A stretch of DNA of 33,366 nt. Source: an uncultured Verrucomicrobiota bacterium. Lineage in GTDB: Bacteria; Verrucomicrobiota; Verrucomicrobiia; Limisphaerales; CAIMTB01. Location: contig CAIMTB010000289.1 in the NCBI GenBank assembly GCA_903844265.1, positions 1 through 33,366 on the forward strand, written 5' to 3'. A program made the position numbers and the translations under genes. The notes beneath the pieces were generated by a model. It saw nothing but the letters and a program-made list of their open reading frames with translations. It was not told where the DNA came from and searched no databases. Positions 12,800 to 33,270 of the stretch are shown here, one piece after another; the first letter of the stretch is position 1; each line of letters begins with the position of its first letter.

Positions 12800-12806
12800 C
12801 CTGCGT

Positions 12807-13966: not shown

Positions 13967-13978
13967 TCGGAGACACTC

Positions 13979-14475: not shown

Positions 14476-14487
14476 ACAGAGGCAACC

Positions 14488-14853: not shown

Positions 14854-14856
14854 ACC

Positions 14857-15132
14857 ATGGCTGCCAAGTCCCACGTTAAGAAGGGCGACGAAGTCGTCGT
14901 GATCGCAGGCGCCGAACGCACCAAGCGCGGCAAGGTGCTGGCGGTATCCACCACCTCGCTGCGGGTCGTCGTCGAAGGCGTCCGCATGGTGAAACGGCAC
15001 ACCAAAAAATCTCAGCAACATCCCCAGGGCGCCATCGTTGAGCGCGAAGGGAGCCTGCACCTCTCCAAGGTGATGCTGGCAACCCGCTACGACGAGCGCG
15101 CCGCGCGTCGTACCTCCGCTTCCAAGGCTTGA
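14857..15132 (+). CDS. rplX: 50S ribosomal protein uL24 (L24)
   Basis: L24 starts 50S assembly by binding the 5' end of 23S rRNA. The 91-residue product contains the KOW motif KKGDEVVVIAGAERTKRGKVLAV at residues 8-30 and the sequence GVRMVKRHTKKSQQHPQGAIVERE. It is shorter than the 104-residue E. coli protein at the C-terminus, and nothing essential appears lost. It begins 3 bases after rplN, with GGAGGT inside the rplN end, and is followed after 13 bases by rplE. Confidence 0.96.
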   Translation: MAAKSHVKKGDEVVVIAGAERTKRGKVLAVSTTSLRVVVEGVRMVKRHTKKSQQHPQGAIVEREGSLHLSKVMLATRYDERAARRTSASKA

Positions 15133-15145
15133 GCGAGTCCCGTCC

Positions 15146-15688: not shown

Positions 15689-15730
15689 ACCCTCTGGCAT
15701 CTTCATTTACTGCACTGTTCCGGAGACAAT

Positions 15731-16000
15731 ATGGCGAAGAAATCATGGATGGAGCGCGACAAGCGCAAGCGGGCGACGGTGGCGAAATTCGCCACGAAGC
15801 GCGCAGAGATGAAGGCCAACGGCGACTACGCCGGTCTGGCGAAGCTGCCGAAGGATGCCTGCCCGGTGCGACTCACCAATCGATGCCGTCTCACTGGACG
15901 TCGTCGCGGCTTCATTCGAAAGTTCGGAGTTTCTCGTATCACCTTCCGTGAAATGGCGCTGTCGGGACTGATCCCGGGAGTGACCAAAGCCAGCTGGTAA
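15731..16000 (+). CDS. rpsN: 30S ribosomal protein uS14 (S14), zinc-free type
   Basis: S14 is a late-assembling 30S head protein. The 89-residue product is the longer, zinc-independent (C-) form: [24 protein letters not shown] followed by [29 protein letters not shown]. It lacks the two CxxC pairs of the short zinc form. GGAGA sits 6-10 bases before the ATG. It lies between rplE and rpsH, the usual spc position. Confidence 0.97.
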
Positions 16001-16004
16001 GTCT

Positions 16005-16397
16005 ATGATGACCGACCCCATTTCCGATCTGCTCTGCCGAGTCCGCAACGCGGCAATGGCACGTCATGCTGACGTGCTCATTCCCCACTCGCGACTCAAG
16101 GAGAACATCGCGCACCTGTTGAAGCGAGAAGGCTATGTCTCGGAGGTCTCCGTTGAAGGAACCATTCCGAAGAATATCCGGGTGACGCTGAAGTACACGC
16201 CCGCCAAGAAGTGCGTCATCGAGGGATTGCGCAGGCTGAGTTCCCCGGGTCGCCGTGTGTACTCCTGTTGCGCCGACATTCCCAAGGTTCGTGGCGGACT
16301 GGGTGTGGTCGTCCTCTCGACTCCGGCCGGGATCTTCACCGACCGCGAGGCGCGCAAGCGCAACATCGGCGGCGAGCTCCTCTGCTCAATCTGGTAG
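16005..16397 (+). CDS. rpsH: 30S ribosomal protein uS8 (S8)
   Basis: S8 binds the central domain of 16S rRNA and in E. coli is the repressor of the spc operon through the rplE leader. The 130-residue product starts MMTDPISDLLCRVRNA and ends with VLSTPAGIFTDREARKRNIGGELLCSIW, a clear family C-terminus. Either of the two adjacent ATG codons (16005, 16008) could be used. The gene follows rpsN by 4 bases and precedes rplF by 29. I did not see an S8-like site at the rplE start. Confidence 0.97.
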   Translation: MMTDPISDLLCRVRNAAMARHADVLIPHSRLKENIAHLLKREGYVSEVSVEGTIPKNIRVTLKYTPAKKCVIEGLRRLSSPGRRVYSCCADIPKVRGGLGVVVLSTPAGIFTDREARKRNIGGELLCSIW

Positions 16398-16426
16398 GTC
16401 CCATTCGATAATTCAAGGAACCGCTT

Positions 16427-16963
16427 ATGTCGCGAATCGGCAAAATGCCCATCAGCATCCCGGCCAAGGTCAAGGTCGGAATGGCAGCTCGGTTGGTCAG
16501 CATTGACGGACCCCGGGGCCATCTGGAATTCTCGCTGCCTGGTCGTACGGCGGTCGAGATCCAGGAAGACAAGATTCTTGTGACCCGCCCGGACGACACG
16601 GCCCAGTCGAAGGCCTTCCACGGATTGGCTCGTGCAATCCTGAACAACATGGTCCGTGGCGTGGTGGATGGCTTTACGAAGCAGTTGGAGATCCAAGGGG
16701 TGGGCTTCAAGGCCTCCGTGCAGGGCAAGCAGGTCAACCTGAGCTTGGGCTACTCGCATCCCATCAATTATCCCATACCGGATCAGATCAAGATAACGGT
16801 CGAGGAGAATACGAAGATCCGAATCGAGGGACCTGACCGCCAGGTGGTGGGCAGGGTGGCATCAGAAATCCGCGCCTATTACCCGCCCGAGCCTTACAAG
16901 GGCAAGGGTGTCCGGTACGCCGGCGAGATCGTACGCCGCAAGGAAGGCAAGACCGTCCAGTAA
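16427..16963 (+). CDS. rplF: 50S ribosomal protein uL6 (L6)
   Basis: L6 lies near the sarcin-ricin loop and the factor-binding site of the 50S subunit. The 178-residue product begins MSRIGKMPISIPAKVKV, has two repeated alpha/beta domains, and ends with the signature AYYPPEPYKGKGVRYAGE plus EIVRRKEGKT. Length is typical. AAGGA is 7-11 bases before the ATG. A small perfect hairpin follows the stop before rplR. Confidence 0.98.
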   Translation: MSRIGKMPISIPAKVKVGMAARLVSIDGPRGHLEFSLPGRTAVEIQEDKILVTRPDDTAQSKAFHGLARAILNNMVRGVVDGFTKQLEIQGVGFKASVQGKQVNLSLGYSHPINYPIPDQIKITVEENTKIRIEGPDRQVVGRVASEIRAYYPPEPYKGKGVRYAGEIVRRKEGKTVQ

Positions 16964-16967
16964 TACG

Positions 16968-16984
16968 GGTGAGTCACACTCACC
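16968..16984 (+). promoter_or_regulatory. Small hairpin between rplF and rplR
   Basis: GGTGAGT (16968-16974) and ACTCACC (16978-16984) form a perfect 7-bp stem with a 3-base CAC loop, 4 bases after the rplF stop. There is no T-run, so it is not an intrinsic terminator. It may protect a processing end or affect rplR translation, whose ATG is 20 bases downstream. Confidence 0.45.
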
Positions 16985-17004
16985 GGCACCCATTCATCCG
17001 CAGC

Positions 17005-17370
17005 ATGAACATTCAGAACAAGCAACGCCTGGCCAACCTCCGCCGTCTCCGCATTCGGCGGAAAGTGGTTGGCACACCGGAGCGGCCAAGGATGAGCGTC
17101 AAGTTCACAGGGCAGCACATCTACGTTCAATTCATCGACGACGCCGCAGGTGCAACACTGGCCTCGACTTCGACTCGGTCAAAGGAGGTCCGCAGTCAGG
17201 GCCCCGCAAAGGCGAATGTCGATACAGCGAAGCGAATCGGAGTGATTGCCGCCCAGGCCGCCGTGGCGAAGGGCTTGAAGAGGGTCGTTTTCGACCGCAG
17301 TGGCGCCCGGTACCACGGCAAGGTAAAAGCGCTGGCCGATGCAGCGCGTGAAGGTGGTCTCGATTTCTGA
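17005..17370 (+). CDS. rplR: 50S ribosomal protein uL18 (L18)
   Basis: L18 binds 5S rRNA with L5 and L25-type proteins in the central protuberance. The 121-residue product contains RRLRIRRKVVGTPERPRMSVKFTGQHIYVQFIDD in family order and ends VVFDRSGARYHGKVKALADAAREGGLDF, the classical C-terminus. The ATG at 17005 gives the usual N-terminus MNIQNKQRL. An in-frame GTG at 16969 would add 12 residues but lies within a hairpin stem. A 16-base gap precedes rpsE. Confidence 0.96.
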   Translation: MNIQNKQRLANLRRLRIRRKVVGTPERPRMSVKFTGQHIYVQFIDDAAGATLASTSTRSKEVRSQGPAKANVDTAKRIGVIAAQAAVAKGLKRVVFDRSGARYHGKVKALADAAREGGLDF

Positions 17371-17386
17371 TTTTACGCACCCGGTT

Positions 17387-18148
17387 ATGGCTGATTCCTC
17401 ACAAGAAGTGATTTCCGAGGGCCGCCCCACTGAGGGCTCCTCTCCGGCGCCAGCAGCGCCAGCAGCGCCAGCAGCCACAGCCGCTTTTGCGGCACCGGCC
17501 GCAGCAGCCCCACATGCCGCTCCTTCTGCGCCCTCCGGGCAGCACGGGTTTGGGCGTGGCCAGGACTTCCGCGGCGGTGGTGGTGGCCGTGGTCCGCAGC
17601 GTGGGCGGCGGCCACGCCAGTCCGAGCACGACGATCGCGAGAACAGCGACATCGTCGAAAAGGTCATCTTCATCAACCGATCGGCGAAGGTGGTCAAGGG
17701 AGGTCGACGCTTCAGTTTCAGCGCCTTGATTGTGGTCGGTGACCGCAAGGGCAAGGTCGGTCTGGGCTTGGGCAAGGCAGGCGAAGTTGCCGAGGCGATC
17801 AAGAAGGGTGGGGCTGCGGCCAAGCAGGCGATGGTCACAGTTTCTCTCGCCGAGTCCACGATTCCTCACGAGGTCACGTCGGTGTTCGATGGGGCCAAGG
17901 TGATGCTCAGGCCAGCCTCCCAAGGCACCGGCGTTATCGCTGGAAAGACGGTACGTGCCGTTCTTGACGCTGCGGGTGTCAGAAATGTGCTCACCAAGTC
18001 CTTGGGTTCAAACAACGCAGCAAACGTTGCCAAGGCGACCTTATCCGCACTCCAACGACTTCGTACGAGGGAGGAGATCCTTCGTTGCCGAGGTATCATG
18101 GTGACACCCCGAGCCTCTGTTCCTCCCGCCCTTGCGCCGGCCAACTGA
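17387..18148 (+). CDS. rpsE: 30S ribosomal protein uS5 (S5) with long N-terminal extension
   Basis: S5 lines the mRNA entry channel and affects accuracy. The family core starts near residue 88 (IVEKVIFINRSAKVVKGGRRFSFSAL in blocks) and includes GKVGLGLGKAGEVAEAI and the C-terminal NVLTKSLGSNNAANVAKAT. The first 85 or so of 253 residues are an added low-complexity region, Ala/Pro-rich (about 20-50) then Gly/Arg-rich with RGG-like sequence (57-78). The Ala/Pro part is encoded by three exact 9-bp repeats GCGCCAGCA at 17447-17473. The extension is probably disordered and may bind RNA. No rpmD (L30) gene follows; rplO comes next. Confidence 0.96.
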   Translation: MADSSQEVISEGRPTEGSSPAPAAPAAPAATAAFAAPAAAAPHAAPSAPSGQHGFGRGQDFRGGGGGRGPQRGRRPRQSEHDDRENSDIVEKVIFINRSAKVVKGGRRFSFSALIVVGDRKGKVGLGLGKAGEVAEAIKKGGAAAKQAMVTVSLAESTIPHEVTSVFDGAKVMLRPASQGTGVIAGKTVRAVLDAAGVRNVLTKSLGSNNAANVAKATLSALQRLRTREEILRCRGIMVTPRASVPPALAPAN

Positions 18149-18156
18149 TTTTTACC

Positions 18157-18624
18157 ATGCGACTTCACAACCTCGTTAACAGGCCAGGTGCCCGTACCCG
18201 CTCCAAGCGGGTGGGTCATGGTGAATCCAGCGGTCTCGGCCGTACTTCCGGTCGCGGTGGCAAAGGTCAGTCCGCCCGCGCCGGTGGTTCCCTACGAGTA
18301 GGGTTTGAGGGTGGCCAGATGCCGCTCATACGCCGCGTCCCCAAGCGCGGCTTCAACAATGCGCGTCACCGCGTCTCCTACCTGCCGATCAACGTCGGCA
18401 GTCTGGCGGAGTTTGCGGCAGGGACCGTGGTGGACGAGAAGCTTTTGCGAGGATCGGGTCTTGCTCGAGGGCGCTTCGAGCGGATTAAGATTCTCTCCGA
18501 TGGCGACCTGGCACATCGACTGGTGGTTCACGCCGACGGCTTCAGCGAGGCCGCACGCAACAAGATCGTGGCCGCAGGCGGCGAGTGCCACATCATTTCG
18601 CGTGGCGCACCCCCCGCTGCTTGA
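18157..18624 (+). CDS. rplO: 50S ribosomal protein uL15 (L15)
   Basis: L15 is a late-assembly 50S protein with a long N-terminal extension into rRNA. The 155-residue product begins MRLHNLVNRPGARTRSKRVGHGESSGLGRTSGRGGKGQ (seen as separate family blocks) and has GFEGGQMPLIRRVPKRGFNN, the family signature. The ATG at 18157 matches the family start; in-frame sequence upstream belongs to rpsE in another frame. It follows rpsE by 8 bases and precedes secY by 17. Confidence 0.97.
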   Translation: MRLHNLVNRPGARTRSKRVGHGESSGLGRTSGRGGKGQSARAGGSLRVGFEGGQMPLIRRVPKRGFNNARHRVSYLPINVGSLAEFAAGTVVDEKLLRGSGLARGRFERIKILSDGDLAHRLVVHADGFSEAARNKIVAAGGECHIISRGAPPAA

Positions 18625-18641
18625 GGATTCCTGAGGCCGGC

Positions 18642-20030
18642 ATGTTCCAAAAGATTCTATCAACCCTGGCGAACTGCTTCCGTGTACCGGAGCTGAAGTC
18701 ACGGATTCTCTTTACCCTGGGAATCCTGGCGGTCTGCCGAATTGCTGCAATCGTTCCCCTGCCTGGGCTCGATGGGGGAGCGCTGACCGCGTTCCTCCGC
18801 GATGTGCAGCGAAGTGGGGACGGCAACTCGCTGGTGAGCATGTACAGCCTGTTTACCGGTGGCGCGCTTGAGCGTTGCGCACTGGGGGCATTGGGCATCA
18901 TGCCCTACATCAGCGCCACAATCATCATCCAGCTGCTGGGGGCCGTGGTGCCAAGCCTGAGCAAGCTCTCCCGCGAGGAGGGTGGCAGGATGAAGATCGT
19001 TCAGTACAGCAGGTACCTGACGATCCTTCTGTGCCTTGGGCAGGGATTCGCGATGACCGTAGGTTGGGAGAATCCGCAGAACATACCCGGGTTTTCCAGC
19101 TTTCAGGGCCGTCTGGTCATCATGGAGCCCATATGGTGGTACCGGGTGCAGACTGTGCTTCTTCTGACTGCTGCAACGATGCTGCTGGTGTGGTTGGGTG
19201 AGCAGATCACAGAGCGTGGCATCGGCAACGGCATCAGCCTCATCATCACTGTGGGAATCCTTGCGAGGATGCCTTCAACCGCGAAGAGCGTGTATATGCT
19301 CTTCTTTCCGCCCTCCGGAGAAGGCGGTAAGACCATTTTCCACGCAATAGCCCTCATTCTACTGATGATGGCCGTGGTGGCAGCCGTCATCGCCGTGACG
19401 CAGGCGCAGCGGAAGATTCCTGTGCAATACGCGCAGAGATCGGTGGGTCGCAAAGTTGTCCCTGGTGGCAGCTCGTTTATGCCCCTGCGGGTGAACGCTG
19501 CGGGCGTCATGCCGATCATTTTTGCGCAGGCCATCCTGATGTTTCCTGAAAAGCTCCTTCTGAGCCTCGGTGGACGGTTCTCGGCTCTTGCCTTCCTCAA
19601 GCCGCTGGCGGGAGCGATTGGGCACGGGACGCCGGCGTATCTCCTCATGGAAGCAGGGATGATCATATTCTTCTCCTACTTCTGGGTGGCAACGATCTTC
19701 AACGAGATCCAGATTGCGGACGACCTCAAGAAGTATGGTGGATACATCCCGGGCGTGCGACCTGGGCAGGCAACAAGCGACTTCCTCCACTGGACCATGA
19801 GCCGCATTACCCTCGCCGGGGCGGTGTTCCTGGCAGCGATCGCGGTGCTGCCGATCATCCTGTATCGGGCGATGAATGTTCCATTTGATGTGGCAAGCTT
19901 CTTCGGGGGGACAAGCATCCTGATCACTGTAGGCGTGCTGTTGGACACCCTGCGCCAGCTGGAATCCTTCCTGCTGATGCGCCATTACGACGGGTTCCTG
20001 AAAAAGGGACGTGTTCGTGGAAGATTTTAG
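18642..20030 (+). CDS. secY: Preprotein translocase subunit SecY
   Basis: SecY is the channel of the SecYEG translocon for protein export and membrane insertion. The 462-residue protein starts MFQKILSTLANCFRVPELKSRILFTLGILAVCRI and has about ten hydrophobic helices. Conserved elements include GIMPYISATIIIQLL in helix 2, GERGIGNGISLIIT-like ITERGIGNGISLII, and the cytosolic loop QRKIPVQYAQRSVGRKVVPGG before MPLRVNAAGVMPIIFA. Later loops carry ADDLKKYGGYIPGVRPG, also characteristic. I chose the ATG at 18642 because the longer frame overlaps rplO. No adk gene follows; an 80-base gap with a hairpin leads to map. Confidence 0.98.
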   Translation: MFQKILSTLANCFRVPELKSRILFTLGILAVCRIAAIVPLPGLDGGALTAFLRDVQRSGDGNSLVSMYSLFTGGALERCALGALGIMPYISATIIIQLLGAVVPSLSKLSREEGGRMKIVQYSRYLTILLCLGQGFAMTVGWENPQNIPGFSSFQGRLVIMEPIWWYRVQTVLLLTAATMLLVWLGEQITERGIGNGISLIITVGILARMPSTAKSVYMLFFPPSGEGGKTIFHAIALILLMMAVVAAVIAVTQAQRKIPVQYAQRSVGRKVVPGGSSFMPLRVNAAGVMPIIFAQAILMFPEKLLLSLGGRFSALAFLKPLAGAIGHGTPAYLLMEAGMIIFFSYFWVATIFNEIQIADDLKKYGGYIPGVRPGQATSDFLHWTMSRITLAGAVFLAAIAVLPIILYRAMNVPFDVASFFGGTSILITVGVLLDTLRQLESFLLMRHYDGFLKKGRVRGRF

Positions 20031-20051
20031 ATTTTGTTCATTGAAAGTTTC

Positions 20052-20084
20052 TTGGAGGAGGCAGGTGTGTCCTGTGTCCTCCAA
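20052..20084 (+). promoter_or_regulatory. Stem-loop between secY and map
   Basis: TTGGAGGA (20052-20059) pairs perfectly with TCCTCCAA (20077-20084). Inside, CAGG (20062-20065) pairs with CCTG (20071-20074) around a 5-base loop. The stem buries a GGAGGA sequence, and no U-run follows. It lies 27 bases before the map ATG, which has no other ribosome site. It could be an attenuator, an RNase site or a translational switch; this is inference from base pairing only. Confidence 0.5.
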
Positions 20085-20110
20085 AGAACAGACTTGGCAG
20101 GCTTAACGGT

Positions 20111-20875
20111 ATGGGCTTGATCAAGAGCCAGGCCGAGATCGCTGCGATACGTGAGGCCTGTCGAATCGCGGCCGTGGTCCTGGAGGAGGTAGGCTCCCAG
20201 GTACGCCCGGGCGTGACGACCGCAGATCTCGACGCGTACGCGGCTGAGAGGATTGCCTTTCGGGGCGCGCGGAGTGCCTTTTTGGGGTACCGCGGGTTCC
20301 CTGGGCAGACATGCCTCTCGGTGAACGATGAAGTCGTTCATGGCATTGCGGGGACGAGACGGTTGCAGTTCGGTGATGTGATCAGTGTCGACGTGGGAGT
20401 GTTGCACCGCGGTTTCGTAGGAGACACAGCAGCCACCTATCCCGTGGGGGGGTGCAGCACGGCAGCGCAACGCCTGCTTGACGTCACGCGTGAGGCGCTG
20501 TCCCAGGGGATCGCGCAGGCGAGGAACGGGAATGGGGTTGTGGATATTTCGAGGGCAGTGCAGGCTGTGGTTGAGGCCGCGGGTTTCAGCGTGGTGCGCG
20601 ACTTCGTCGGGCATGGGGTCGGGCGCAGCGTACACGAGGAGCCGCAGATACCGAATTTCGTCGAGGCAGGGCTTCGACGTTCGCCTCGCTTGAAGAGTGG
20701 CATGACCATCGCGATCGAGCCAATGGTGAACGCCGGCAAGCGGGACGTAAGAGTTCTGAATGACAACTGGACTGTGGTGACGGCGGATGGCAAGCTCTCC
20801 GCCCATTTTGAGCACACGGTCCTGGTAACAGGCGGTGAGCCGGAAATTTTGACGTGTCGAGAGAGGACGCCATAA
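20111..20875 (+). CDS. map: Type I methionine aminopeptidase
   Basis: MetAP removes the initiator Met from nascent proteins using a dinuclear metal centre. The 254-residue protein has the pita-bread fold residues in order: H77 in DEVVHGIAG, metal ligands D94 (SVDVGV) and D105 (VGDTAATY), H168 (GHGVGR), E203 (AIEPMV) and E234 ([10 protein letters not shown]). No N-terminal zinc-finger extension is present. It sits between secY and infA, the usual place in many phyla, but without the adk gene. The infA start lies inside its last 22 bases. No ribosome site is next to the ATG apart from the sequence held in the upstream stem-loop. Confidence 0.97.
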
Positions 20876-21075
20876 GGGTCGAAGGGACCGTTGCAGAGGT
20901 GCTGCCCAACACGATGTTTCGTGTGGGGCTGCCCAACGGTCATCAGGTCCTGGCTCATATCTCGGGGAAGATGCGGGTGAATTGGAACCGCATCCTGCCA
21001 GGGGACAGGGTGGACATGGAAATGTCACCGTATGACCTGTCTCAGGGCTGTATTATTACGTATCGACAGAAATGA
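20854..21075 (+). CDS. infA: Translation initiation factor IF-1
   Basis: IF-1 blocks the A site of the 30S subunit during initiation. The 73-residue protein is an OB-fold: [44 protein letters not shown] in family blocks, followed by [26 protein letters not shown]. It starts at a GTG at 20854 that overlaps the 3' end of map by 22 bases; starting later would remove the first conserved strand. Its stop is 6 bases before rpmJ. Confidence 0.96.
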
Positions 21076-21081
21076 ATTGCC

Positions 21082-21195
21082 ATGAAAGTCAGGGCTTCGG
21101 TCAAGAAACTGTGTGAGAACTGCAAGGTGGTCCGCCGAAAAGGCGTGATCCGCGTCATTTGCTCCAACCCGCGCCACAAACAGCGCCAAGGCTGA
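21082..21195 (+). CDS. rpmJ: 50S ribosomal protein bL36 (L36), zinc-binding type
   Basis: L36 is a small 50S protein that stabilises 23S rRNA packing. The 37-residue product reads [17 protein letters not shown] and continues [20 protein letters not shown]. The zinc ligands Cys11, Cys14, Cys27 and His32 are all present, so this is the zinc (C+) form. It starts 6 bases after infA and ends 9 bases before rpsM, the standard alpha-operon position. Confidence 0.96.
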
Positions 21196-21204
21196 TCATC
21201 TGCC

Positions 21205-21600
21205 ATGCCACGTATTATTGGTGTTGAAATTCCCGGGGAGAAGCGCATTGAGATTGCGCTTCGCTACATCTACGGAATCGGTCCAAAGAACGCACTCGAT
21301 GTACTCGAGCGCGCCAACATACCGCTCGGCCTTCGGGCGAAGGACCTTACGGAGCAGCAACTTTCCTTGATTGTTCACGCGATCCAGGATGGTAAGTACG
21401 TCATCGAGGGTGACCTGCGCCGCGAGATTGGCCTTAATTTGAAACGCCTTCAGGGCATCAAGTGCTATCGCGGCGTGCGCCATCTCCGCGGACTTCCAGT
21501 CCGTGGTCAGCGCACCCAGACGAATGCCCGCACACGCAAGGGACCTCGCAAGACGGTCGGCGTGCAGCGCAATCCCAACGCCAAGACGGGCATCCACTAA
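21205..21600 (+). CDS. rpsM: 30S ribosomal protein uS13 (S13)
   Basis: S13 is a head protein that forms inter-subunit bridges and touches P-site tRNA with its tail. The 131-residue product begins [26 protein letters not shown] and has [33 protein letters not shown] in family order. It is slightly longer at the C-terminus than E. coli S13. It follows rpmJ by 9 bases without a Shine-Dalgarno motif. I saw no S4-binding pseudoknot like that of the E. coli alpha operon leader, but could not fold the RNA. Confidence 0.97.
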
Positions 21601-21609
21601 TAGGTCGCC

Positions 21610-22251
21610 ATGGCAGACGAGAAATCGACCCCACAGACTCCCGAGGCTCCCGCCGCAGGCGCGAAGCCAACCAAGGCCCACACTGGCGAAGGAAAGCCGG
21701 CAAAGGGCAAGAAGGCGGCAGCCGCGGATGCCACTGCAACCGGAGCCGCCTCGGCGCCCGGTGCAGGCGCAGCAGCGGGCGGTGCATCGCCGGAGGGAGC
21801 CCCTGCTCCAATGGTTCCTGTTGCCGGCTCGGCACCGACTGCCGCTGAGATCCTGGGCACAGACATAGGCCCCAAGAAGATCATCCGTGCGAAGGGTTCC
21901 AAGAACATCACGGTGGGGATTGCCCACATTCTGGCGACCTTCAACAACACCCAGGTATCAGTGACCGACATGCAGGGAAACCTGCTTGGTTGGTCCTGCG
22001 CCGGCCGGGTTGGCTTCAAGGGTTCGCGCAAGAGCACAGCATTCGCCGCGCAGCAGGTGGCGCAGGACGCCGCCCGTCAGGCGATGGCCCATGGGCTGCG
22101 CGAGATCGAGGTGCATGTCAAAGGACCTGGATCGGGTCGTGAATCGGCCATTCGCGCTCTTCAGGCTATCGGTCTTGAGATCAGTGTGATCCGAGACGAG
22201 ACGCCAATTCCGCACAACGGATGTCGCCCGCGCAAGAAGCGCCGCGTCTAA
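21610..22251 (+). CDS. rpsK: 30S ribosomal protein uS11 (S11) with long N-terminal extension
   Basis: S11 lies on the 30S platform at the mRNA exit. The core begins near residue 98 ([21 protein letters not shown]) and continues with [35 protein letters not shown] and [18 protein letters not shown]. The first 97 or so of 213 residues are an added region rich in Ala, Lys, Gly and Pro (for example [20 protein letters not shown]), nearly doubling the protein. The ATG at 21610 follows rpsM by 9 bases, and there is no Met between the extension and the core except residue 68. The extension resembles that of uS5 in composition, suggesting a shared lineage trait. Confidence 0.96.
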
Positions 22252-22276
22252 CTTTCAAACGCAGGAGAAATCGCTC

Positions 22277-22885
22277 ATGGCACGTTATACCGGCCCGCGG
22301 GCGCGCATCAGCCGCCGCCTCGGAGTCCCCATCTTCGGCTACTCGAAGTCGCTCGAGAAACGCAATTACGCACCGGGCCAGCATGGTCCGAAGTCACGTC
22401 GCAAGGTGACGGACTACGCGCTGGGCCTGCTTGAGAAGCAGAAGCTTCGATATTACTACGGGCTTCAGGAGCGCCAGTTCCGACGGGTCTACGAGACCGC
22501 GGCGCGCCGACGAGGCGTGACGGGCGAGCAGATGCTCCAGTTGCTGGAGACACGACTGGACAGCATCGTCTACTCGCTGGGTCTGGCGAGCACACGCCCT
22601 GCGGCCCGCCAGATGATCGGGCACGGGCACGTGAGGGTCAACGGGCGCAAGGTCGACGTGTCGTCCTACGCAACGAAGGCGAACGACCTGATCGAGATCC
22701 GCGCCAACGCCGTTTCCAAGCAATTGGCGACTCGCGGAATGGAGCTTTCCACCAGCCGGCCGGTTCCGGATTGGCTCTCGCTGAGCAAGGATGCCATGAA
22801 GGGCACGGTGGTTAGGATGCCGACCCGGGAGGACATCCAACCCATCGCGAATGAGCAGGCAGTGGTCGAATTTTACTCCCGTTAA
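22277..22885 (+). CDS. rpsD: 30S ribosomal protein uS4 (S4)
   Basis: S4 nucleates 30S body assembly and in E. coli represses the alpha operon. The 202-residue product begins MARYTGPRARISRRLG and has NYAPGQHGPKSRRKVTDYALGLLEKQKLR in family order. The S4 RNA-binding domain includes LETRLDSIVYSLGLASTRPAARQMIGHGHVRVNG, and the C-terminal extension ends EQAVVEFYSR. The N-terminal Cys ligands of the zinc form are absent. AGGAG at 22263-22267 is an acceptable ribosome site. An inverted repeat follows the gene before rpoA. Confidence 0.98.
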   Translation: MARYTGPRARISRRLGVPIFGYSKSLEKRNYAPGQHGPKSRRKVTDYALGLLEKQKLRYYYGLQERQFRRVYETAARRRGVTGEQMLQLLETRLDSIVYSLGLASTRPAARQMIGHGHVRVNGRKVDVSSYATKANDLIEIRANAVSKQLATRGMELSTSRPVPDWLSLSKDAMKGTVVRMPTREDIQPIANEQAVVEFYSR

Positions 22886-22895
22886 CGAGAATCAA

Positions 22896-22918
22896 GGGAC
22901 GGCGAGGATCGCCGTCTC
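22896..22918 (+). promoter_or_regulatory. Stem-loop between rpsD and rpoA
   Basis: GACGGCGA (22898-22905) and TCGCCGTC (22909-22916) form a perfect 8-bp stem with a GGA loop. G22896-C22918 and a G-U pair extend it to 10 bp. It starts 11 bases after the rpsD stop. No T-run follows, so it is not a standard terminator. It could adjust rpoA output relative to the ribosomal genes, by processing or partial termination. The function is inferred from position only. Confidence 0.5.
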
Positions 22919-22990
22919 GTGGCGAATATATGGTCAGCCAAGGTATGGGAGTGCCATTGGCGGGCAGGTTACATTTGCCAGGAGGAAAAA

Positions 22991-24004
22991 ATGCCAGTTA
23001 GACTAGGTCGTTTCGAAATGCCAAAGCGGTTGGTGAAGGACGAGGCCACCGCTACCGATATCTATGCCCGTTTCACGGCTGAGCCGTTTGAGACAGGGTA
23101 CGGGTACACCATCGGTAACAGTCTGCGTCGCGTGCTTCTGTCGTCGCTTGAGGGCGCGGCTGTAACATCGTTCAAGGTGGAGGGTGCGATGCACGAGTTC
23201 ACGACCGTCGAGGGGGTCGTTGAAGACGTGACTGACATCGTGCTGAACTTGAAGAAGATCAAGTTCCGGCAGTTCTCGCGAGACCCCCAGATTGTTCGGC
23301 TCTCCGTCAACAAGGAGGGCGCGATCACGGCGTCTGACATCGAGACCAACGACAAGCTCGAGTTGGTCAACCCGAAGCAGCTCATCTGCACTCTTGACAA
23401 GAAGAGGAAGCTCGAGATGGAGCTTGAGGTGAAGGTGGGACGCGGATTCTGCCCTGCCGATGAGAACAAGCGACCTGACCAGGCCATTGGCGTCATCGCC
23501 ATTGACTCGATCTTCTCGCCCGTGATCCGGGTCCGGTACGGAGTCGAGGCGGCCCGGGTAGGGCAGCGTACGGACTACGACAAGCTGGTTTTGGAGATCT
23601 GGACTGATGGCCGCGTCAGCCCCCAGGACGCGTTGGTCCAGTCGAGCTCGATACTCAAGAAGCATCTTGAGCCGTTCTACAGCTACGACGAGAACGCGGT
23701 GCAGTTTGAGGAGGAGAAGGGCAAGGAGGACGAGGAGCGCGAGAAGTTCAAGAAGCTCCTGCTGATGTCCGTCAACGAGATCGAGCTGTCCGTCCGTGCC
23801 GCCAACTGCCTCAATAACGCCAACATCACGACCGTCGGTCAATTGGCGATGAAGTCGGAGAGCGAGATGCTGAAGTACCGCAACTTCGGCAAGAAATCGC
23901 TCAACGAGATCAAGGACAAGCTTACAGCGTTGGGATTGTCCCTCGGAATGAATATCGATCCCTCCTTGTTGGAAGCCCCCAAGGAAGATCCCATCAAGAT
24001 CTAG
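22991..24004 (+). CDS. rpoA: DNA-directed RNA polymerase subunit alpha
   Basis: Alpha dimerises to scaffold RNA polymerase assembly, and its C-terminal domain binds UP elements and activators. The 337-residue protein has the N-terminal domain with FTAEPFETGYGYTIGNSLRRVLLSSLEGAAV and the CTD with NEIELSVRAANCLNNANITTVGQL and KYRNFGKKSLNEIKDKL. The Arg in LSVRAANCL corresponds to the DNA-contacting R265 of E. coli. The ATG at 22991 is chosen because AGGAGG lies at 22980-22985. A TTG or GTG further upstream (22919) would add 24 residues without family character. An acidic linker (EEEKGKEDEEREK) joins the domains. rplQ follows after 3 bases. Confidence 0.98.
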   Translation: MPVRLGRFEMPKRLVKDEATATDIYARFTAEPFETGYGYTIGNSLRRVLLSSLEGAAVTSFKVEGAMHEFTTVEGVVEDVTDIVLNLKKIKFRQFSRDPQIVRLSVNKEGAITASDIETNDKLELVNPKQLICTLDKKRKLEMELEVKVGRGFCPADENKRPDQAIGVIAIDSIFSPVIRVRYGVEAARVGQRTDYDKLVLEIWTDGRVSPQDALVQSSSILKKHLEPFYSYDENAVQFEEEKGKEDEEREKFKKLLLMSVNEIELSVRAANCLNNANITTVGQLAMKSESEMLKYRNFGKKSLNEIKDKLTALGLSLGMNIDPSLLEAPKEDPIKI

Positions 24005-24007
24005 GCC

Positions 24008-24556
24008 ATGCGTCACCTTAAGAAAACCGCCAAGCTGGGCCGCACGTCGCAGCATCGTAACATGATGCTGTCGAACATGGTCAACAGCCTCATCATTCAC
24101 CGCCGAATCACGACCTCGCTCGCCAAGGCAAAAGCCGCGCAGCGAGTCGCCGAACGGATGGTCACACTCGGCAAGCGCGCCAACGCCGCCGTCACTTCAG
24201 CATCGACCGTCACTGACGAGCGAGCGAAGGCACAGATAATGGCGGACAGCGTCCACTGCCGACGGTTGGTCGCCGCCCGTCTGCGCCAGCAGCCGCGTTC
24301 CCTTTTCAAGAGCAAGGAAGAGCGAATCAAGTGGCGTGAGAATCAGGACGTCATCCACATGCTCTTCGACAAGATCGCCCCGGTCTTCAAGGACCGTTCA
24401 GGCGGCTACACGAGGATCATGAAGCTTGCCGCCAAGCGGCGCGGTGACGCAGGTGAGCAGGCGATCCTGGAATGGGTGGACCTTCCCGCGGAGATCGCGG
24501 GGGGCAGCGCATGGCCTGCCGCTTCTGGTGCGGCCGATGCCAAGCCGGCGGTCTGA
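24008..24556 (+). CDS. rplQ: 50S ribosomal protein bL17 (L17), enlarged form
   Basis: L17 lies at the base of the 50S subunit near the tunnel exit. The family N-terminus MRHLKKTAKLGRTSQHRNMM and the C-terminal FKDRSGGYTRIMKLAAKRRGD are clear. At 182 residues it is much longer than the 127 of E. coli. About 35 extra residues lie between residue 57 and about 112, including QQPRSLFKSKEERIKWREN, and there is a short Ala-rich tail. It is the last gene of the cluster, with a strong terminator 23 bases after its stop. Confidence 0.96.
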   Translation: MRHLKKTAKLGRTSQHRNMMLSNMVNSLIIHRRITTSLAKAKAAQRVAERMVTLGKRANAAVTSASTVTDERAKAQIMADSVHCRRLVAARLRQQPRSLFKSKEERIKWRENQDVIHMLFDKIAPVFKDRSGGYTRIMKLAAKRRGDAGEQAILEWVDLPAEIAGGSAWPAASGAADAKPAV

Positions 24557-26276: not shown

Positions 26277-29200
26277 ATGAATACGCCGCTGCCGACCGGG
26301 TCGTCCCACCTAGGTTCCAGGTCTGATTCTTCAGTTCCCGACGATTTCTGCCTGGTCCCCGGTTACCAGTCGCGTACGACGCCCGAGTACTATGTTGATT
26401 CGGCGACTCGCGACACCGGCATCGTCTGGCAGCCGGACGTCTACCCGGTGGCTGCGGTTGTCGCCCGGCAGCTTGGGTGCTTTCACATTCTGGACATTGG
26501 GTGCGGTGATGGCGCGAAGCTCACTCCGCTTCATCCCGAGTTTCTGGTGACCGGTGTGGATTACGGCCAGAATCTGGATTATTGCCGCAGTCACTATGGG
26601 TTCGGGCAGTGGCTTGAGGCGGATTTTGAGAGCGCCGATTTTCTGTTGATACCTGAGGCGGTTCTCGCGCGCACCGTGGTGGTGTGTTCAGACGTGATTG
26701 AGCATCTGGTGGACCCTCGTGCGTTGTTGAGGTTGATCAGGATGCTGCTGCGCCATGCTCCGTATGCGGTGCTGTCCACTCCCGAGCGTGAGGTGGTTCG
26801 CGGGGTGGAGCACCGAGGGCCTTCGCCAAACCGGGCTCACGTGCGTGAATGGAGTCTGGTGGAGTTGGGTCGCCTGTTTGCTCTTGCCGGATTGCGCCCC
26901 GATTTTCTCGGACTGACCCGAAGTAATTCCCAGGGGCCGTTTGCGGGAACCATCTTTACGATGATCCGGGGTCGGGGGGAGGGCCTTGGTCTTTTCCAAG
27001 GGGCACCGCAGCGCTCGGTGGTAGGGATCAAGGGTGATCAGATCGAGATCGTGACACCCGGTGGGCAGCTGATCCCGGGTTTGACGGGAAGGGGGGCAGT
27101 GGTGGCGGTCAGTGACTCAGGTGGGGATCGGGGACCCGGCTCGTCGGGATCCGAGGAGACCAACGATCAACTTGGGGAGGTCAGGGAATGGGCTCTTCGT
27201 GAGCAGGCGAGCCGTCGGTTGGCCGAGCAGCGGACAGCTGACATTCGGAAGCAGATGGAACTGTCGCTCGCGCAGCTTCGAGGCGAGATGCATGCCGCCC
27301 TGAAGGGGCGGGTCGGCTTGCTTGAGTCAGCGCAGGTGCAGGCCTATGTCCGGTGTCGATCCAGCCTGGAGGTGGGCCGTGCTTTGGCACGCCTTGGGCA
27401 GCGCGATGCGGCAGTTGCGTCGCTCATGGAAGGTTTGAAGGTTGTTCCCGCGCTGGAGCAACCGGCGGTGGTGCTTGAGGTGCTGACCGAGTGCGGTCGT
27501 GCTCTTGTGCCTTTGGACCGTGGTCTGGCGGGCCGGACACTGGAGCAGGCGGATCAGCTTGCCCGGGCGATTGGCAGCGCGAAGGCGCTCGAGGATGTGG
27601 CGGCCTCTCGGGCCTTGCTTCGTCAGGGAACTTCGGAAGAGGCGCCCGCTCTCCTCGTTTCTGTCGTCATTCCCTGCTTCCGTCAGGCTGGGCTATTGTC
27701 GGAAGCGGTCCTGAGCGTGGTCGATCAAACCTTCGCGGGCTGGGAAATCGTCATTGTCAACGACGGCAGCCCCGACGACACGTCCGCCGTGGCGCGAAGG
27801 CTCGCGGCCCGCCATCCTGACCGGCGCATCCGACTCATCGAAAAGCCGAATGGTGGATTGTCGAGCGCGCGGAATGCGGGGGTCCGGGCGGCGGCGGGGA
27901 AATACATTCTTCCGCTGGATGCGGACGACAAGATCGAGTCCACGATGCTGGCGGAATTGGTGCCGCTTCTTGAGGCGAGACCTGAGTTGGGCTTCGTTTA
28001 TGGGCACATCCGGCATTTTGGGGACCGGACCGATGAGTATCCGCTGCCTGACTTCGACAGGGACACGCTGGTATTGAAGGATAACATCGTCTGTGTTTGT
28101 TCTCTCTTCCGTAAGCCCGCGTGGGAGCAGGTTGGGGGATACAATGAGGCGATGCGGGAGGGTTATGAGGACTGGGATTTCTGGATCAGCCTGGTCGAGC
28201 GCGGATGGCTTGGCTTCTGTGTGCACAAGCCGTTGTTTCTCTACCGGAAACACGGGCGGAGCATGCTGTCTGGAGCCAATGAAAAGCGCCAGCGCCTCAT
28301 CGCCAGGATCATGCTCAACCATCCGCGGATGTATGATTCCGCGGCGGCGAAATGGGCGCAGGAAGTTCTCGGGGACGCCGGTTCGCCGGCCGCTGGGAAG
28401 GTGGGCGATGGGAACGGTGTGTCGCAGCCCGATTCCGTCGCCTCGGCAGGCGGGTCGGTTTATGCCGGCGGGCCGGATGGTCCTGGCCTGAAGGCGCCCG
28501 CTGAGGGTCGGCGGGGGTTGGTGATCACCTACCTCATCAGTTCCGTGCAGGGCGTGACGGGTGGCAATATCACGTTGCTGCGGCAGGCTCAGGAGTTCCG
28601 GAACCGTGGGCACCAAGTCACGATCGTCAGCTACACCCCCAAGCCCGGATGGTTTGGTGGGGACGTTGCGGTGGTGCAGGTCCCGCAGGGCACCCCTTTG
28701 GCGAGCGCGGTTCCCCCCAGCGATGTGACCATCGCCACGTATTTCACGAACGCGGCTGAACTTCTGGCTGTGAGTTCGTGCGCCAGGATCTACTACGCCC
28801 AGGGCGATCAATTTGTCTTCGGTGATGCCGATGTCGTGGGAAATGCGGCCCACCATCCGCTGCAGGAGCTATCCCGTCATTCCTATCTCCTTCCGGGCGT
28901 CCGATTCGTGGCGAACTCGAACAATCTGGCGAATGCAGTCGAGAAACTCACGGGGCGATGGGCTGACGCGGTGCTGCCGGTATGTACGGATCAGCAGATT
29001 TTCCGTCCCTTGACGAGGGCGCTGCCAGGCTCGCGATGCCGCATCCTGGTGGTGGGTCCGGACACCCGGGGCACGCCGGGGGAACCGCTTCTCTTCAAGG
29101 GGATCCAGGATATTCGGGATGCGATGGAGATACTTGGTCGTCGGAACATTCCTATCACCGTCGTCCGGATCTCCTCCTCACGACCCGAGATCTTTTCGAC

Positions 29201-31598
29201 ATATCCTTGTGAGTTTCATGTCCGCCCGACGGACGAGATGAAGACGGTTCTCTATGGCACGGCGGACATACTGGTGTACGCATCCCATTATGATTCCTGT
29301 CCGCGTCCGCCGCAGGAGGGGATGGCGGCGGGTTGTGCGGTCGTCTGCACCTCGACTTCCGGGGCGCTGGAGTACTGTCGGGATGGGGATAATTCGTTGC
29401 TTGTTCCCATCAAGTCGCCGGAGGCGATTGCTGGTGCGGTGGAGAGGCTTGTTCGTGACCGATCGCTTCGTGAGCGACTGGTGGCGGGCGGGATGGAGAC
29501 TGCCCGGCAATATCCGCAGGAGCGTGAATGGAATGAGATGGAGGCGCTCCTGTGGCGCTTCGTTGAGGAGGAGTCCGGGCGCGGTCATGGGGTGAATGGG
29601 GGCGACGCGCAGGGCGGGGAGAAGCCGCCTGCTGCGTCGGGATCGTCTCAAGGGCTTCCTGCGTGTGCCCAACTCGGGAATCTAGAGCCGGCCTGCGAGC
29701 TTATCCGGCGCAAAGATTGGCGTGGAGCCTGGGAGACCACGATGGCGCAGATCCATCATCGGCCGTTCCATCCGGAGGCTTATCTTCAGCTGGCAGAGAT
29801 CGCCAAGGCGGTCGGTGATTCGGTGTCGGCCAGGCATTGTGCCCAGCGCGCCCGTGACTTCGCACCCGACTGGAAGCCGGCGAGGCAGTTTTTTCAACGC
29901 GCGCTGAAGGGGAACTCACGCCCGGAATGGCTCTCACTTCCCGCCGAACTTGGCGTGGCGAAGTCCGAGCGTCGACCGACCCTGTCGGTGTGCATGATCG
30001 TGCGCAACGAGGAGAAGTTTCTTGCGGGTTCCCTGGCCTCGATCCGCGATCTGGCGTCACAGATCATCGTGGTCGATACAGGTTCCACCGATCGTACCGT
30101 GGAGATCGCGAAAGAGAACGGCGGCGAAGTTCATTCGTTCACATGGGCGGACGATTTTGGAGCCGCGCGGAACCGCGCCCTTGAATTTGCGGTGTGCGAC
30201 TGGGTTCTGATGTTGGATGCCGATGAGGAGCTGTCTCACGGCGCGGTGGGCGAGATCCGGCGGATGATGGGTTTGGCGTCGGTTGCCGCGTGGCGGTTGC
30301 CGATCGTGGATGCCAGTGACGAGGCGGGCGGGGCGAGTTATGTGCCTCGGCTGTTCCGCAATGCTCCCGGGCTTTACTATCTGGGCCGCATCCACGAGCA
30401 GGTCTTTTCCAGCCTGGAACCGCTCCGGGTGAGGTGGGGATTGGACAACCGGCTCGGGACGGCCAAGCTGCTGCACCATGGGTATTCCTCGGAGGTGACC
30501 CGGGATCGCCGGAAGATCGAGCGAAATCTTCGTCTCCTCGAGATGGATCTCGTCGAAAGGCCGGGGGATCCCAATCTCCTGATGAGCCTCGGCCTTGAGT
30601 TGGTGCGCTCGGGTCGACGGGACCAAGGACTCGATCGCTACCGGCAGGCCTTTGCGTTGTTAGGCAGGCAGGCGGTGTCCGACGTGGTTCCCGAGTTGCG
30701 TGAGACCTTGTTGAGCCAGTTCGCAACGCACCTGATGGCGGCAAAGCATCACGCGGAGCTCATTCGGGTCCTGCGATCCCCGATGGCGTTGGCACAGGGA
30801 GGGCTGAGTGCGTCGTTGCATTTCATCCTGGCGCTGACCCAGATCGAGTTGGGAGATCCTGCAGCGGCCATTGAGAATCTGCGGCAGTGTCTCGAGAAGA
30901 AAGACCACCCTTCCCTGGCCCCGATTCACAAGGGGATCCTCAGTGCGGCCCCCTTGCACTGCCTGGCGGTCTGTCTGCAACGTCAGGGGGATAGCCCGGG
31001 CGCGGCCCAGGCCTTTCAGAGAGGGTTGGAGGTCGATGGGACCTCGCGACCTTTGCGCTCGGATTATGCCGCGTTCCTGGCGGCGACAGGGCAAATCCCC
31101 GAGGCGCTGCAGGTCCATTACGCCCTTGCCCAGGAGCATCCCGGCGATGTCGCGGCATGGCTGAAGGGAGGCGAATTGGCCCTGAAATCTCCTGAACTTC
31201 TCGAAGTCGCAGTCGACTGGACCGACGCCGCGTGCGGTCATCATCCGGCGGATCCGGAGCTGGCTGTCCAGCGGATGGAGGCCTTGATGCTTTCCGGAAA
31301 GCACGAGGAGGCGTTGCCTTGGGTGCGGCGCTGTCTCGCCGTTGAGGGTTCCCCGCGGGCCGCGGCGGCGCGGGTCATCTGTGAATTAGCCGGTGGCGGC
31401 GTCGAATCTTTGGCGCCGCCTCCCGACGAAGTGCTTGCCAGTCGCGAATTCGCGCAATGGTATCGTCGCCTTTTCGAATACGGTGCGCGGGATCTGGTGT
31501 TGCTGTTGAATTCCCGGGTGGCTGAGTTGGCGAAGGTGTTGCCCACGGCGGCTACGGCGCTGGCCGCGGCTTTGGCGGGGGAGGAAAGTGCGGGGTGA
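26277..31598 (+). CDS. Giant multidomain protein: methyltransferase-GT2-GT4-GT2-TPR
   Basis: This protein of about 1,773 residues appears to be a glycan assembly enzyme. Residues 60-220 hold a class I SAM methyltransferase (ILDIGCGDG at 71-79; CSDVIEHL near 135). Residues 300-455 are helical, with coiled-coil and repeat character. Residues about 459-690 are a GT2 glycosyltransferase (VSVVIPCF, DADD at 548-551, EDWDFW near 630). Residues about 746-1110 resemble GT4 (TGGNITLL; D1006-x7-E1014 then GMAAGCAVV). A two-TPR linker (1139-1212) precedes a second GT2 of the TPR-associated type (SVCMIVRNEE from 1236, DADEE at 1314-1318). TPR-like helices fill 1420-1773. Low-complexity Gly/Ser linkers lie near 700-745 and 1105-1135. 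ATG 26277 (GAGGGG 12 bases upstream) or GTG 26241 could start it. It converges on a flagellin gene, so flagellin glycosylation is possible. No signal peptide or membrane helix is visible. Confidence 0.9.
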   Translation: MNTPLPTGSSHLGSRSDSSVPDDFCLVPGYQSRTTPEYYVDSATRDTGIVWQPDVYPVAAVVARQLGCFHILDIGCGDGAKLTPLHPEFLVTGVDYGQNLDYCRSHYGFGQWLEADFESADFLLIPEAVLARTVVVCSDVIEHLVDPRALLRLIRMLLRHAPYAVLSTPEREVVRGVEHRGPSPNRAHVREWSLVELGRLFALAGLRPDFLGLTRSNSQGPFAGTIFTMIRGRGEGLGLFQGAPQRSVVGIKGDQIEIVTPGGQLIPGLTGRGAVVAVSDSGGDRGPGSSGSEETNDQLGEVREWALREQASRRLAEQRTADIRKQMELSLAQLRGEMHAALKGRVGLLESAQVQAYVRCRSSLEVGRALARLGQRDAAVASLMEGLKVVPALEQPAVVLEVLTECGRALVPLDRGLAGRTLEQADQLARAIGSAKALEDVAASRALLRQGTSEEAPALLVSVVIPCFRQAGLLSEAVLSVVDQTFAGWEIVIVNDGSPDDTSAVARRLAARHPDRRIRLIEKPNGGLSSARNAGVRAAAGKYILPLDADDKIESTMLAELVPLLEARPELGFVYGHIRHFGDRTDEYPLPDFDRDTLVLKDNIVCVCSLFRKPAWEQVGGYNEAMREGYEDWDFWISLVERGWLGFCVHKPLFLYRKHGRSMLSGANEKRQRLIARIMLNHPRMYDSAAAKWAQEVLGDAGSPAAGKVGDGNGVSQPDSVASAGGSVYAGGPDGPGLKAPAEGRRGLVITYLISSVQGVTGGNITLLRQAQEFRNRGHQVTIVSYTPKPGWFGGDVAVVQVPQGTPLASAVPPSDVTIATYFTNAAELLAVSSCARIYYAQGDQFVFGDADVVGNAAHHPLQELSRHSYLLPGVRFVANSNNLANAVEKLTGRWADAVLPVCTDQQIFRPLTRALPGSRCRILVVGPDTRGTPGEPLLFKGIQDIRDAMEILGRRNIPITVVRISSSRPEIFSTYPCEFHVRPTDEMKTVLYGTADILVYASHYDSCPRPPQEGMAAGCAVVCTSTSGALEYCRDGDNSLLVPIKSPEAIAGAVERLVRDRSLRERLVAGGMETARQYPQEREWNEMEALLWRFVEEESGRGHGVNGGDAQGGEKPPAASGSSQGLPACAQLGNLEPACELIRRKDWRGAWETTMAQIHHRPFHPEAYLQLAEIAKAVGDSVSARHCAQRARDFAPDWKPARQFFQRALKGNSRPEWLSLPAELGVAKSERRPTLSVCMIVRNEEKFLAGSLASIRDLASQIIVVDTGSTDRTVEIAKENGGEVHSFTWADDFGAARNRALEFAVCDWVLMLDADEELSHGAVGEIRRMMGLASVAAWRLPIVDASDEAGGASYVPRLFRNAPGLYYLGRIHEQVFSSLEPLRVRWGLDNRLGTAKLLHHGYSSEVTRDRRKIERNLRLLEMDLVERPGDPNLLMSLGLELVRSGRRDQGLDRYRQAFALLGRQAVSDVVPELRETLLSQFATHLMAAKHHAELIRVLRSPMALAQGGLSASLHFILALTQIELGDPAAAIENLRQCLEKKDHPSLAPIHKGILSAAPLHCLAVCLQRQGDSPGAAQAFQRGLEVDGTSRPLRSDYAAFLAATGQIPEALQVHYALAQEHPGDVAAWLKGGELALKSPELLEVAVDWTDAACGHHPADPELAVQRMEALMLSGKHEEALPWVRRCLAVEGSPRAAAARVICELAGGGVESLAPPPDEVLASREFAQWYRRLFEYGARDLVLLLNSRVAELAKVLPTAATALAAALAGEESAG

Positions 31599-31950: not shown

Positions 31951-32107
31951 TGGGACCCTGAACCAAGCGGGGATCTACCACGAAGGTCACGAAGAGCACG
32001 AAGGCCAGAGGATCTGTGTTCCTTCGTGTCCTTCGTGCTCTTCGTGGTTCGACTCCGTTCATGGAGAGCCGCCACGGTTCACGAATCGCGCATTGGGACC
32101 CTGAACC
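31951..32107. repeat. Element bracketed by 14-bp direct repeats
   Basis: TGGGACCCTGAACC occurs at 31951-31964 and again exactly at 32094-32107. The two copies bracket the CACGAAG inverted repeat at 31977-32048. They resemble the core of the adjacent 21-bp units (GGTCCCTGCAACC), so they may be further members of that family rather than target-site duplications. Confidence 0.55.
31977..32048. repeat. Long inverted repeat built from CACGAAG units
   Basis: A left arm of 28 bases (31977-32004) contains three tandem CACGAAG-type units. The right arm (32021-32048) contains three CTTCGTG-type units and is its reverse complement at 24 of 28 positions. A 16-base loop separates them. The element would form a long hairpin in RNA or extruded DNA. 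It lies between two convergent genes, so it may also act as a bidirectional barrier or be a non-autonomous repeat family. No open frame with protein-like sequence covers it. Confidence 0.75.
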
Positions 32108-32296: not shown

Positions 32297-33103
32297 TTAC
32301 TGGAGGAGCCGGAGGGCACCGTTGGGCTGGGCATTGGCCTGCGCGAGCATGGCCGTACCCGATTGCACCAAGATATTGTACCGAGCGTACTCCGTGCTCT
32401 CTTCCGCGACATCGACGTCCTTGATGCGGCTGTTGGCAGAACTGAGCGAGGTCTTTTGGACGCTCAATTGCTCGTTCGTGTAGTTCAGTCGGACCATGTT
32501 GGCCCCGACCGTGGCTCGATCCATCGAGATCTGGGTGATGGCGGCCTTGACATTCGTCAGTGCCGTCGCGGCCGAGGCGGTGTCGCCTATGCTCGACCCC
32601 GTCGCCGTCGTGTACGTTCCGTTGCCACTGATGTCGACTCCGGCCATGCCGTAGGTCCCCGCGTCGGAGTCAATGGTGACGTTCAGGGTGGTGGCTGAGA
32701 ACAGCGAGACACCGTTGAAGTCCTTTGTTCCGATGTTGGTGACGTAGGCTCCGAGTTCCTGGAACTCTTTGTCGTAGAGCGCCCGGTCGGAATCCGACTT
32801 GGCGACATCTTGAGACAGCATGGCGAGTTCGCTCATACGATCCAGGGCCTTGGTAGCCTTCTTGAGGAACCCGTCCTGGGTCTGGGTGAACGAGATCGCG
32901 CTGCCGATGTTGTTTGACGCTGCATTGATACGATTGATTTGTGCGTCGAATCGCATGGAGACCGCAAGCCCAGCCGAGTCATCCTCCGGAGAGGTGATCT
33001 TGGATCCCGAAGAAAGTCGGGTGAGTGATTTCGCCAACTTGCTGGACGAATCAGCAAGCAGTTGAGCACTATTCTGAGCCGCGATATTGGTATTGATGAT
33101 CAT
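32297..33103 (-). CDS. Flagellin
   Basis: Flagellin polymerises into the flagellar filament after export through the flagellar type III system. The 268-residue protein has the conserved N-terminal D0/D1 region (MIINTNIAAQNSAQLL, then LTRLSSGSKITSPEDDSAGLAVS) and the C-terminal D1/D0 region (STEYARYNILVQSGTAMLAQANAQPNGALRLLQ). A short central Ser/Thr/Gly/Ala-rich part (about 130-195) stands in for the larger D2/D3 domains of other species. Such Ser/Thr-rich surfaces are common O-glycosylation sites. There is no Cys. GGAAAGAG precedes the ATG. A sigma-28-type promoter lies 141-167 bases upstream and a terminator downstream, so it is a single-gene unit. Confidence 0.97.
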   Translation of the reverse strand: MIINTNIAAQNSAQLLADSSSKLAKSLTRLSSGSKITSPEDDSAGLAVSMRFDAQINRINAASNNIGSAISFTQTQDGFLKKATKALDRMSELAMLSQDVAKSDSDRALYDKEFQELGAYVTNIGTKDFNGVSLFSATTLNVTIDSDAGTYGMAGVDISGNGTYTTATGSSIGDTASAATALTNVKAAITQISMDRATVGANMVRLNYTNEQLSVQKTSLSSANSRIKDVDVAEESTEYARYNILVQSGTAMLAQANAQPNGALRLLQ

Positions 33104-33243: not shown

Positions 33244-33270
33244 TTATCGGCCGGATCCGGATCCACTTTA
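33244..33270 (-). promoter_or_regulatory. Sigma-28 (FliA) promoter of flagellin
   Basis: Read on the - strand this is TAAA, 15 bases, then GCCGATAA. The known sigma-28 consensus is TAAAGTTT-N11-GCCGATAA; the -10 matches 8 of 8 and the -35 matches TAAAGT plus two changes (TAAAGTGG). Spacing is exact. Transcription should begin near 33237, giving a 5' leader of about 134 bases before the flagellin ATG. The spacer contains a repeated GGATCC. Confidence 0.88.

Follow-up and report, generated by a model that had tools for sequence, protein, structure and literature searches.

The window analysed here, a stretch of 33,366 nucleotides from an uncultured Verrucomicrobiota bacterium, encodes a protein of 1,773 residues that very likely takes part in flagellin glycosylation. 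We regard it as probably a modular flagellin-glycan synthase whose fixed C-terminal end would prime flagellin. This reading covers the mechanism in outline, for which we infer catalysis, order of action, sugars, methyl target and acceptor. Since relatives of the protein lie beside flagellum genes in dozens of genomes, the synthase probably makes the sugar coat of the flagellum.

Gene and domain architecture

One unbroken frame holds four catalytic-type domains, as a sequence-only reading of this DNA had proposed. The methyltransferase (MT), a GT2, a GT4-like glycosyltransferase (GT) and a second GT are all recovered by Pfam and predicted folds, the MT by a Pfam family match. ATG 26277, with AGGGG 12 bases upstream, is the likelier start; residues are counted from GTG 26241 throughout.

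26277..31598, + strand: synthase gene, whole; open reading frame from ATG, 1,773 aa (alternative GTG 26241, 1,785 aa)
26340..26990, + strand: SAM methyltransferase domain, residues 34-250; Pfam Methyltransf_23 (83-219), 41.9 bits against a cut-off of 27
27198..27617, + strand: helical-looking spacer, residues 320-459; from sequence, no family match
27618..28376, + strand: first GT2 (GT-A) domain, residues 460-712; Pfam Glycos_transf_2 (474-602), AlphaFold2, Foldseek
28377..28505, + strand: disordered linker, residues 713-755; pLDDT <50
28515..29570, + strand: GT4-like (GT-B) domain, residues 759-1110; Pfam Glycos_transf_1 (999-1082), GT-B fold predicted
29661..29930, + strand: TPR-like helical hairpins before the last GT, residues 1141-1230; AlphaFold2, TPR_17 at 1174-1198
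29970..30512, + strand: GmaR/SunS-type GT-A domain, residues 1244-1424; GmaR 22ao profile, predicted fold, Pfam Glyco_tranf_2_4 (1255-1329)
30513..31595, + strand: C-terminal TPR solenoid, residues 1425-1785, proposed flagellin holder; AlphaFold2, TPR families

All Pfam matches of the synthase (Methyltransf_23, Glycos_transf_2, Glycos_transf_1, Glyco_tranf_2_4 and TPRs) lie above the curated cut-offs. The NCBIfam scan gave no match above its cut-off among the matches listed, so the synthase carries no curated name there. GC3 is even from end to end (0.67-0.77), and in L038, a 99.1% identical contig of another assembly (a Verrucomicrobia MAG), the first 640 synthase codons are open except for one masked run of N. 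The frame is therefore a single gene and no chance frame. Both a chance frame and an assembly fusion are ruled out by the even GC3, by L038 over these 640 codons, by homology that reaches the last residues and by the occurrence of fusions in more than 30 families.

Judged by its sequence, the N-terminal domain is a methyltransferase, with the motif DIGCGDG at 26493-26513 and relatives in L047, L128, L062 and L089. The spacer that follows recurs only in the near-identical L038. In the first GT2, DADD occupies residues 560-563 (27918-27929) and EDWDFW is conserved as invariant columns in the alignment of relatives. The AlphaFold2 model of residues 455-1112 (pLDDT 84) consists of a GT-A domain, a disordered linker and a GT-B domain. 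Foldseek matches the GT-A domain to chondroitin polymerase and WrtF, and the GT-B domain to MshA, BshA and PglA. Close relatives of the GT4 domain occur only in L052/L196 and L039. The idea that low-complexity linkers join the domains holds for ~713-755, predicted to be disordered, and for the linker-like sequence at 1110-1140, but not for 320-460, which looks helical.

The C-terminal module

Modelled by AlphaFold2 from an alignment with 26 relatives, residues 1135-1785 are predicted with a mean pLDDT of 91 to form TPR-like hairpins, a GT-A domain and a TPR solenoid. The motifs DTGSxD, DADE (residues 1326-1329; 30216-30227) and RxHE of this GT-A domain are invariant across 26 relatives. Foldseek places SunS and ThuS as the top structural matches of the module, followed by the TPR superhelix of OGT; designed TPR superhelices are matched as well. 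By sequence, the best solved relative of the last GT is the GT domain of GmaR, with E 7.7e-28 for the single sequence and 1.6e-50 for the profile, and GmaR outscores SunS by 175 to 117 bits. On these sequence comparisons the last GT is classed as GmaR/SunS-type. It had been described as a GT2 of the TPR-associated kind, a description that is right as to the domain and the TPRs behind it but misses the TPR-like hairpins in front and the specific likeness to GmaR and SunS.

Three other assignments were rejected. The curated cut-off of the SunS peptide S-glycosyltransferase model (TIGR04195) is missed with 74.9 of 350 bits, and the Pfam matches of the synthase include neither a GT41 family, as for a GT41/OGT (FlmG-type) enzyme, nor a MAF family, as for a Maf motility-accessory glycosyltransferase. 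What the synthase shares with GmaR-type enzymes is homology in the GT domain, a TPR solenoid after the GT and genomic association with flagellin. GmaR of Listeria monocytogenes transfers GlcNAc onto flagellin, and the authors of a structural study suggest that flagellin is recognised by the TPR domain of GmaR (PMC9638930). The homology to GmaR is independent of the adjacent flagellin gene and indicates the same acceptor.

Flagellar context

The neighbouring gene is a flagellin, in agreement with the sequence-only reading. Its centre, called Ser/Thr-rich, is enriched at 31% over 48 residues, but mildly so, given 20% elsewhere.

31977..32049, no strand assigned: hairpin repeat between the convergent synthase and flagellin genes; z -5.7
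32297..33103, - strand: flagellin, 268 aa, proposed acceptor; Pfam Flagellin_N and Flagellin_C
33245..33270, - strand: sigma-28 (FliA)-type promoter TAAA-N15-GCCGATA upstream of flagellin; perfect site, none expected by chance

Sites with one or two mismatches precede several other flagellins; the same is found in ~7% of random stretches, and only the perfect site of the window was therefore counted. A sigma-28 site was looked for upstream of the synthase and none was found. The synthase is convergent to the flagellin and lies outside its operon. Exact copies of the 26-base arm of the hairpin between them number 20 in the genome, against none for the reversed control, which makes it a dispersed repeat, possibly one that serves as a two-way terminator. 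To the left of the synthase (7196-24556) lies an ordinary cluster of translation genes (EF-G, L3, L4, L2, SecY, RpoA, L17), followed by an MFS transporter.

The genome of the window holds a stand-alone paralogue of the C-terminal module (L146 183-2228; 681 aa, 36% identical), 110 bases from another flagellin (2339-3142) and convergent to it, as the fused gene is to the window flagellin. A FliW-CsrA-flagellin locus lies on contig C459, with no GmaR-type GT near it in the fetched stretch. The module thus adjoins two of the three full-length flagellins of this genome.

Across the order, the module is present in 106 of 293 genomes. Flagellin occurs in 104 of these 106 versus 42 of the 187 genomes without the module, the 42 being a count that holds at the search threshold used; 145 genomes have neither. 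Fisher's test gives 1e-41 for this co-occurrence, a value that ignores shared ancestry and overstates significance; repeated gene order is the stronger argument. A sample of 58 genomes around the window comprised its genus and one genome each from many other families. Strong matches (E <1e-90) were found in 27 of them, all 27 with flagellin, and in none of the 28 genomes without flagellin.

The commonest order, on one strand, is FliW, CsrA, flagellin, none to few sugar genes, and the GT gene. This block recurs in ten loci (L052, L120, L123, L127, L130, L131, L132, L135, L140 and L141), with gaps as small as a 4-base overlap (L127). Variants are CsrA-flagellin-GT in L124 and flagellin-GT-flagellin-FliD in L128, and in L133 the GT gene adjoins FlhB, FlhA and FlhF. 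For 50 GT genes at least 3 kb of upstream sequence was available, and in 32 of these the fetched stretch contains a gene for flagellin, CsrA, FliW, FliD or an Flh protein, compared with ~3% expected at random positions by a rough estimate. Flagellin is the most frequent close neighbour. In L197, L201 and L205, FliW-CsrA is linked to the GT gene and flagellin was not detected. Many of the genomes compared are drafts, and several relatives are cut by contig ends. In two loci (L133 15855-19567 and L140 12714-18274) the flagellins next to the GT gene are unusually long (423-680 aa), and their central regions are large.

The link to flagellin, originally drawn from one adjacent gene, is now strongly supported by the GmaR homology, by co-occurrence across 293 genomes and by the conserved FliW-CsrA-flagellin-GT blocks. 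A check for relatives that never lie near flagellar genes gave the opposite result, namely repeated flagellar linkage.

Variation of the front modules

The C-terminal TPR-GT-TPR module is constant among relatives, and the part that precedes it ranges from nothing to several thousand residues, even within one genus. MT, GT2, GT4, WbsX, GT11 and HAD-like domains are seen at the front; L133, L139 and L146 have no front module. Examples of front parts are:

L129: two GT2
L124 (4,400 aa): FkbM methyltransferase, GT2, GT4
L128: methyltransferases and GTs
L121: WbsX and GT2
L135: GT11, MT, GT2
L123 (5165-10840) and L127 (8112-14024): HAD-hydrolase-like domain at the N-terminus, and GT4

The longest relative is an open frame of 5,118 aa that ends in a GmaR-type module (L213 222-15578). 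Of the 115 module places, 90 lie in open frames 1,100 aa or longer and 48 in frames 2,000 aa or longer. Fusions are spread over more than 30 families of one order.

In the genus of the window (G001-G004), C-terminal regions are 46-48% identical to that of the window, and no strong counterpart of the window's MT or GT4 was found. The closest relatives of the window MT are found in an Acidobacteria giant and in L128, those of the window GT4 in L052 and in an Ignavibacteriae MAG (L039). In L039 the gene for a GT2-GT4 protein overlaps a separate gene for a GmaR-type GT, and flagellin comes next. The full set of MT, GT2, GT4 and GmaR-type module is absent from all other genomes searched; partial sets occur as the MT in L047 and L128 and as the GT2-GT4 pair in L039 and L052/L196. 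In L141, L130, L132 and L052, unfused front modules also separate flagellin from the GT gene. This pattern fits a chain built from exchangeable parts.

At the same threshold, the phylum sample showed the long module in the order of the window and nowhere else; in G102, G142 and G145, stand-alone GmaR-like GTs (open frames of 374-533 aa) are found ~1 kb or less from flagellin. Giants outside the phylum show that the architecture is wider than one order. In Candidatus Brocadia (L053, 4010-16834), FlgL-like, FliW and CsrA genes and a gene for a 372-aa protein precede two giants, 2,723 and 1,549 aa long, in which PS_pyruv_trans, FkbM, GT9, GT2, GT4 and TPR domains occur. In Geomonas (L055), a protein of 3,045 aa encoded near flagellar genes contains six GT2 stretches and, close to its end, a GmaR-like GT. 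Our literature search, with most subscription journals outside its reach, found no paper on such giant fusions, and the papers searched do not appear to describe flagellin glycosylation in Verrucomicrobia.

Discussion

We propose that the synthase is cytoplasmic and that the TPR solenoid of its C-terminal module would bind flagellin before export. The C-terminal GT-A domain would then place the first sugar on Ser/Thr, by analogy with GmaR a HexNAc. More sugars may be added by the GT-A and GT-B modules that precede the C-terminal module, and the N-terminal methyltransferase may methylate one of them, again by analogy. The modified flagellin would be exported and assembled. Exchange of front modules between lineages, with the priming module kept, would alter the flagellar glycan. 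More tentatively, the protein could be a single-chain assembly line, in which a docking and priming C-terminus is combined with swappable modules that act serially on the docked flagellin. In this reading, held just as tentatively, domain shuffling would rewrite the glycan in much the way that exchanged modules change what a modular megasynthase makes.

Some observations count against a flagellin-glycan synthase: the window gene is convergent, has no sigma-28 site and follows the translation cluster and the MFS gene, and 42 flagellated genomes lack the module at the threshold used. An alternative explanation, which we consider unlikely, is that only the C-terminal module acts on flagellin and that MT, GT2 and GT4 act on a surface polysaccharide or a lipid-linked glycan, the fusion reflecting co-regulation or a passenger. 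The front modules do resemble polysaccharide enzymes, vary freely and are missing in the three stand-alone relatives. This explanation is at odds with the unfused front modules that sit between flagellin and the GT gene at four loci, with the adjoining GT2-GT4 protein, GmaR-type GT and flagellin of L039, and with active-site motifs in GT-A and GT-B that look intact by sequence, those of GT-A being conserved.

A change of acceptor, to another flagellum-related or exported protein or to a SunS-like peptide thiol, appears less probable still. SunS and ThuS as top structural matches and the three FliW-CsrA loci without detected flagellin would be accounted for by such an acceptor, but GmaR is the better match by sequence and flagellin the commonest close neighbour. 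Least of all do we expect a surface-polysaccharide synthase for O-antigen or capsule with a chance flagellin neighbour. In its favour are the GT2, GT4 and MT families, which such clusters typically contain, and the position of the synthase gene, convergent to flagellin and outside a flagellar operon. Against it, the GmaR relationship, the near-restriction of the module to flagellated genomes and the repeated flagellar linkage already make this reading very improbable.

Building a flagellin glycan is normally the work of separate genes grouped in islands. In the modular flagellin-glycan synthase favoured here, the priming enzyme is fused with presumed extenders, in chains of up to 5,118 residues (L213). 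If domain content predicts glycan content, flagellar glycans would become readable from sequence and alterable by domain exchange, and the determinants of flagellin-glycan specificity could be tested within one protein.

Relation to known systems

GmaR of Listeria monocytogenes has the nearest solved relative of the synthase's C-terminal GT domain, and TPR repeats follow the GT in both. At 637 aa, GmaR combines a single GT with a MogR antirepressor domain, whereas the synthase has three additional fused enzyme domains and a TPR segment before the GT. SunS and ThuS share the GT-A fold with a helical extension; the window protein differs in falling below the cut-off of the SunS model and in a gene linked to flagellin, not to bacteriocin. 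FlmG of Caulobacter binds flagellin with an N-terminal TPR domain and modifies it with a C-terminal GT, and both domains are needed (PMC7591256). There the TPR comes first and a single GT stands at the C-terminus, and the window protein has no GT41 match in Pfam. In enterobacterial flagellin glycosylation islands, one protein can carry GT and methyltransferase domains (PMC4875605), but the enzymes are of GT41 type and the islands comprise many genes. The Brocadia and Geomonas giants are alike in carrying several GT, MT and TPR domains per chain and differ in their module sets.

The nearest characterised system is that of Clostridioides difficile type B, which likewise combines a flagellin-priming GT with a GT that has an MT domain. 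GT1 adds GlcNAc to flagellin. GT2, which carries the methyltransferase domain, attaches two rhamnoses and has been proposed to methylate these as well; the two genes are located downstream of fliC (PMC5207246). These enzymes are encoded by separate genes, whereas the window unites the corresponding domains in one chain with an extra GT-B module.
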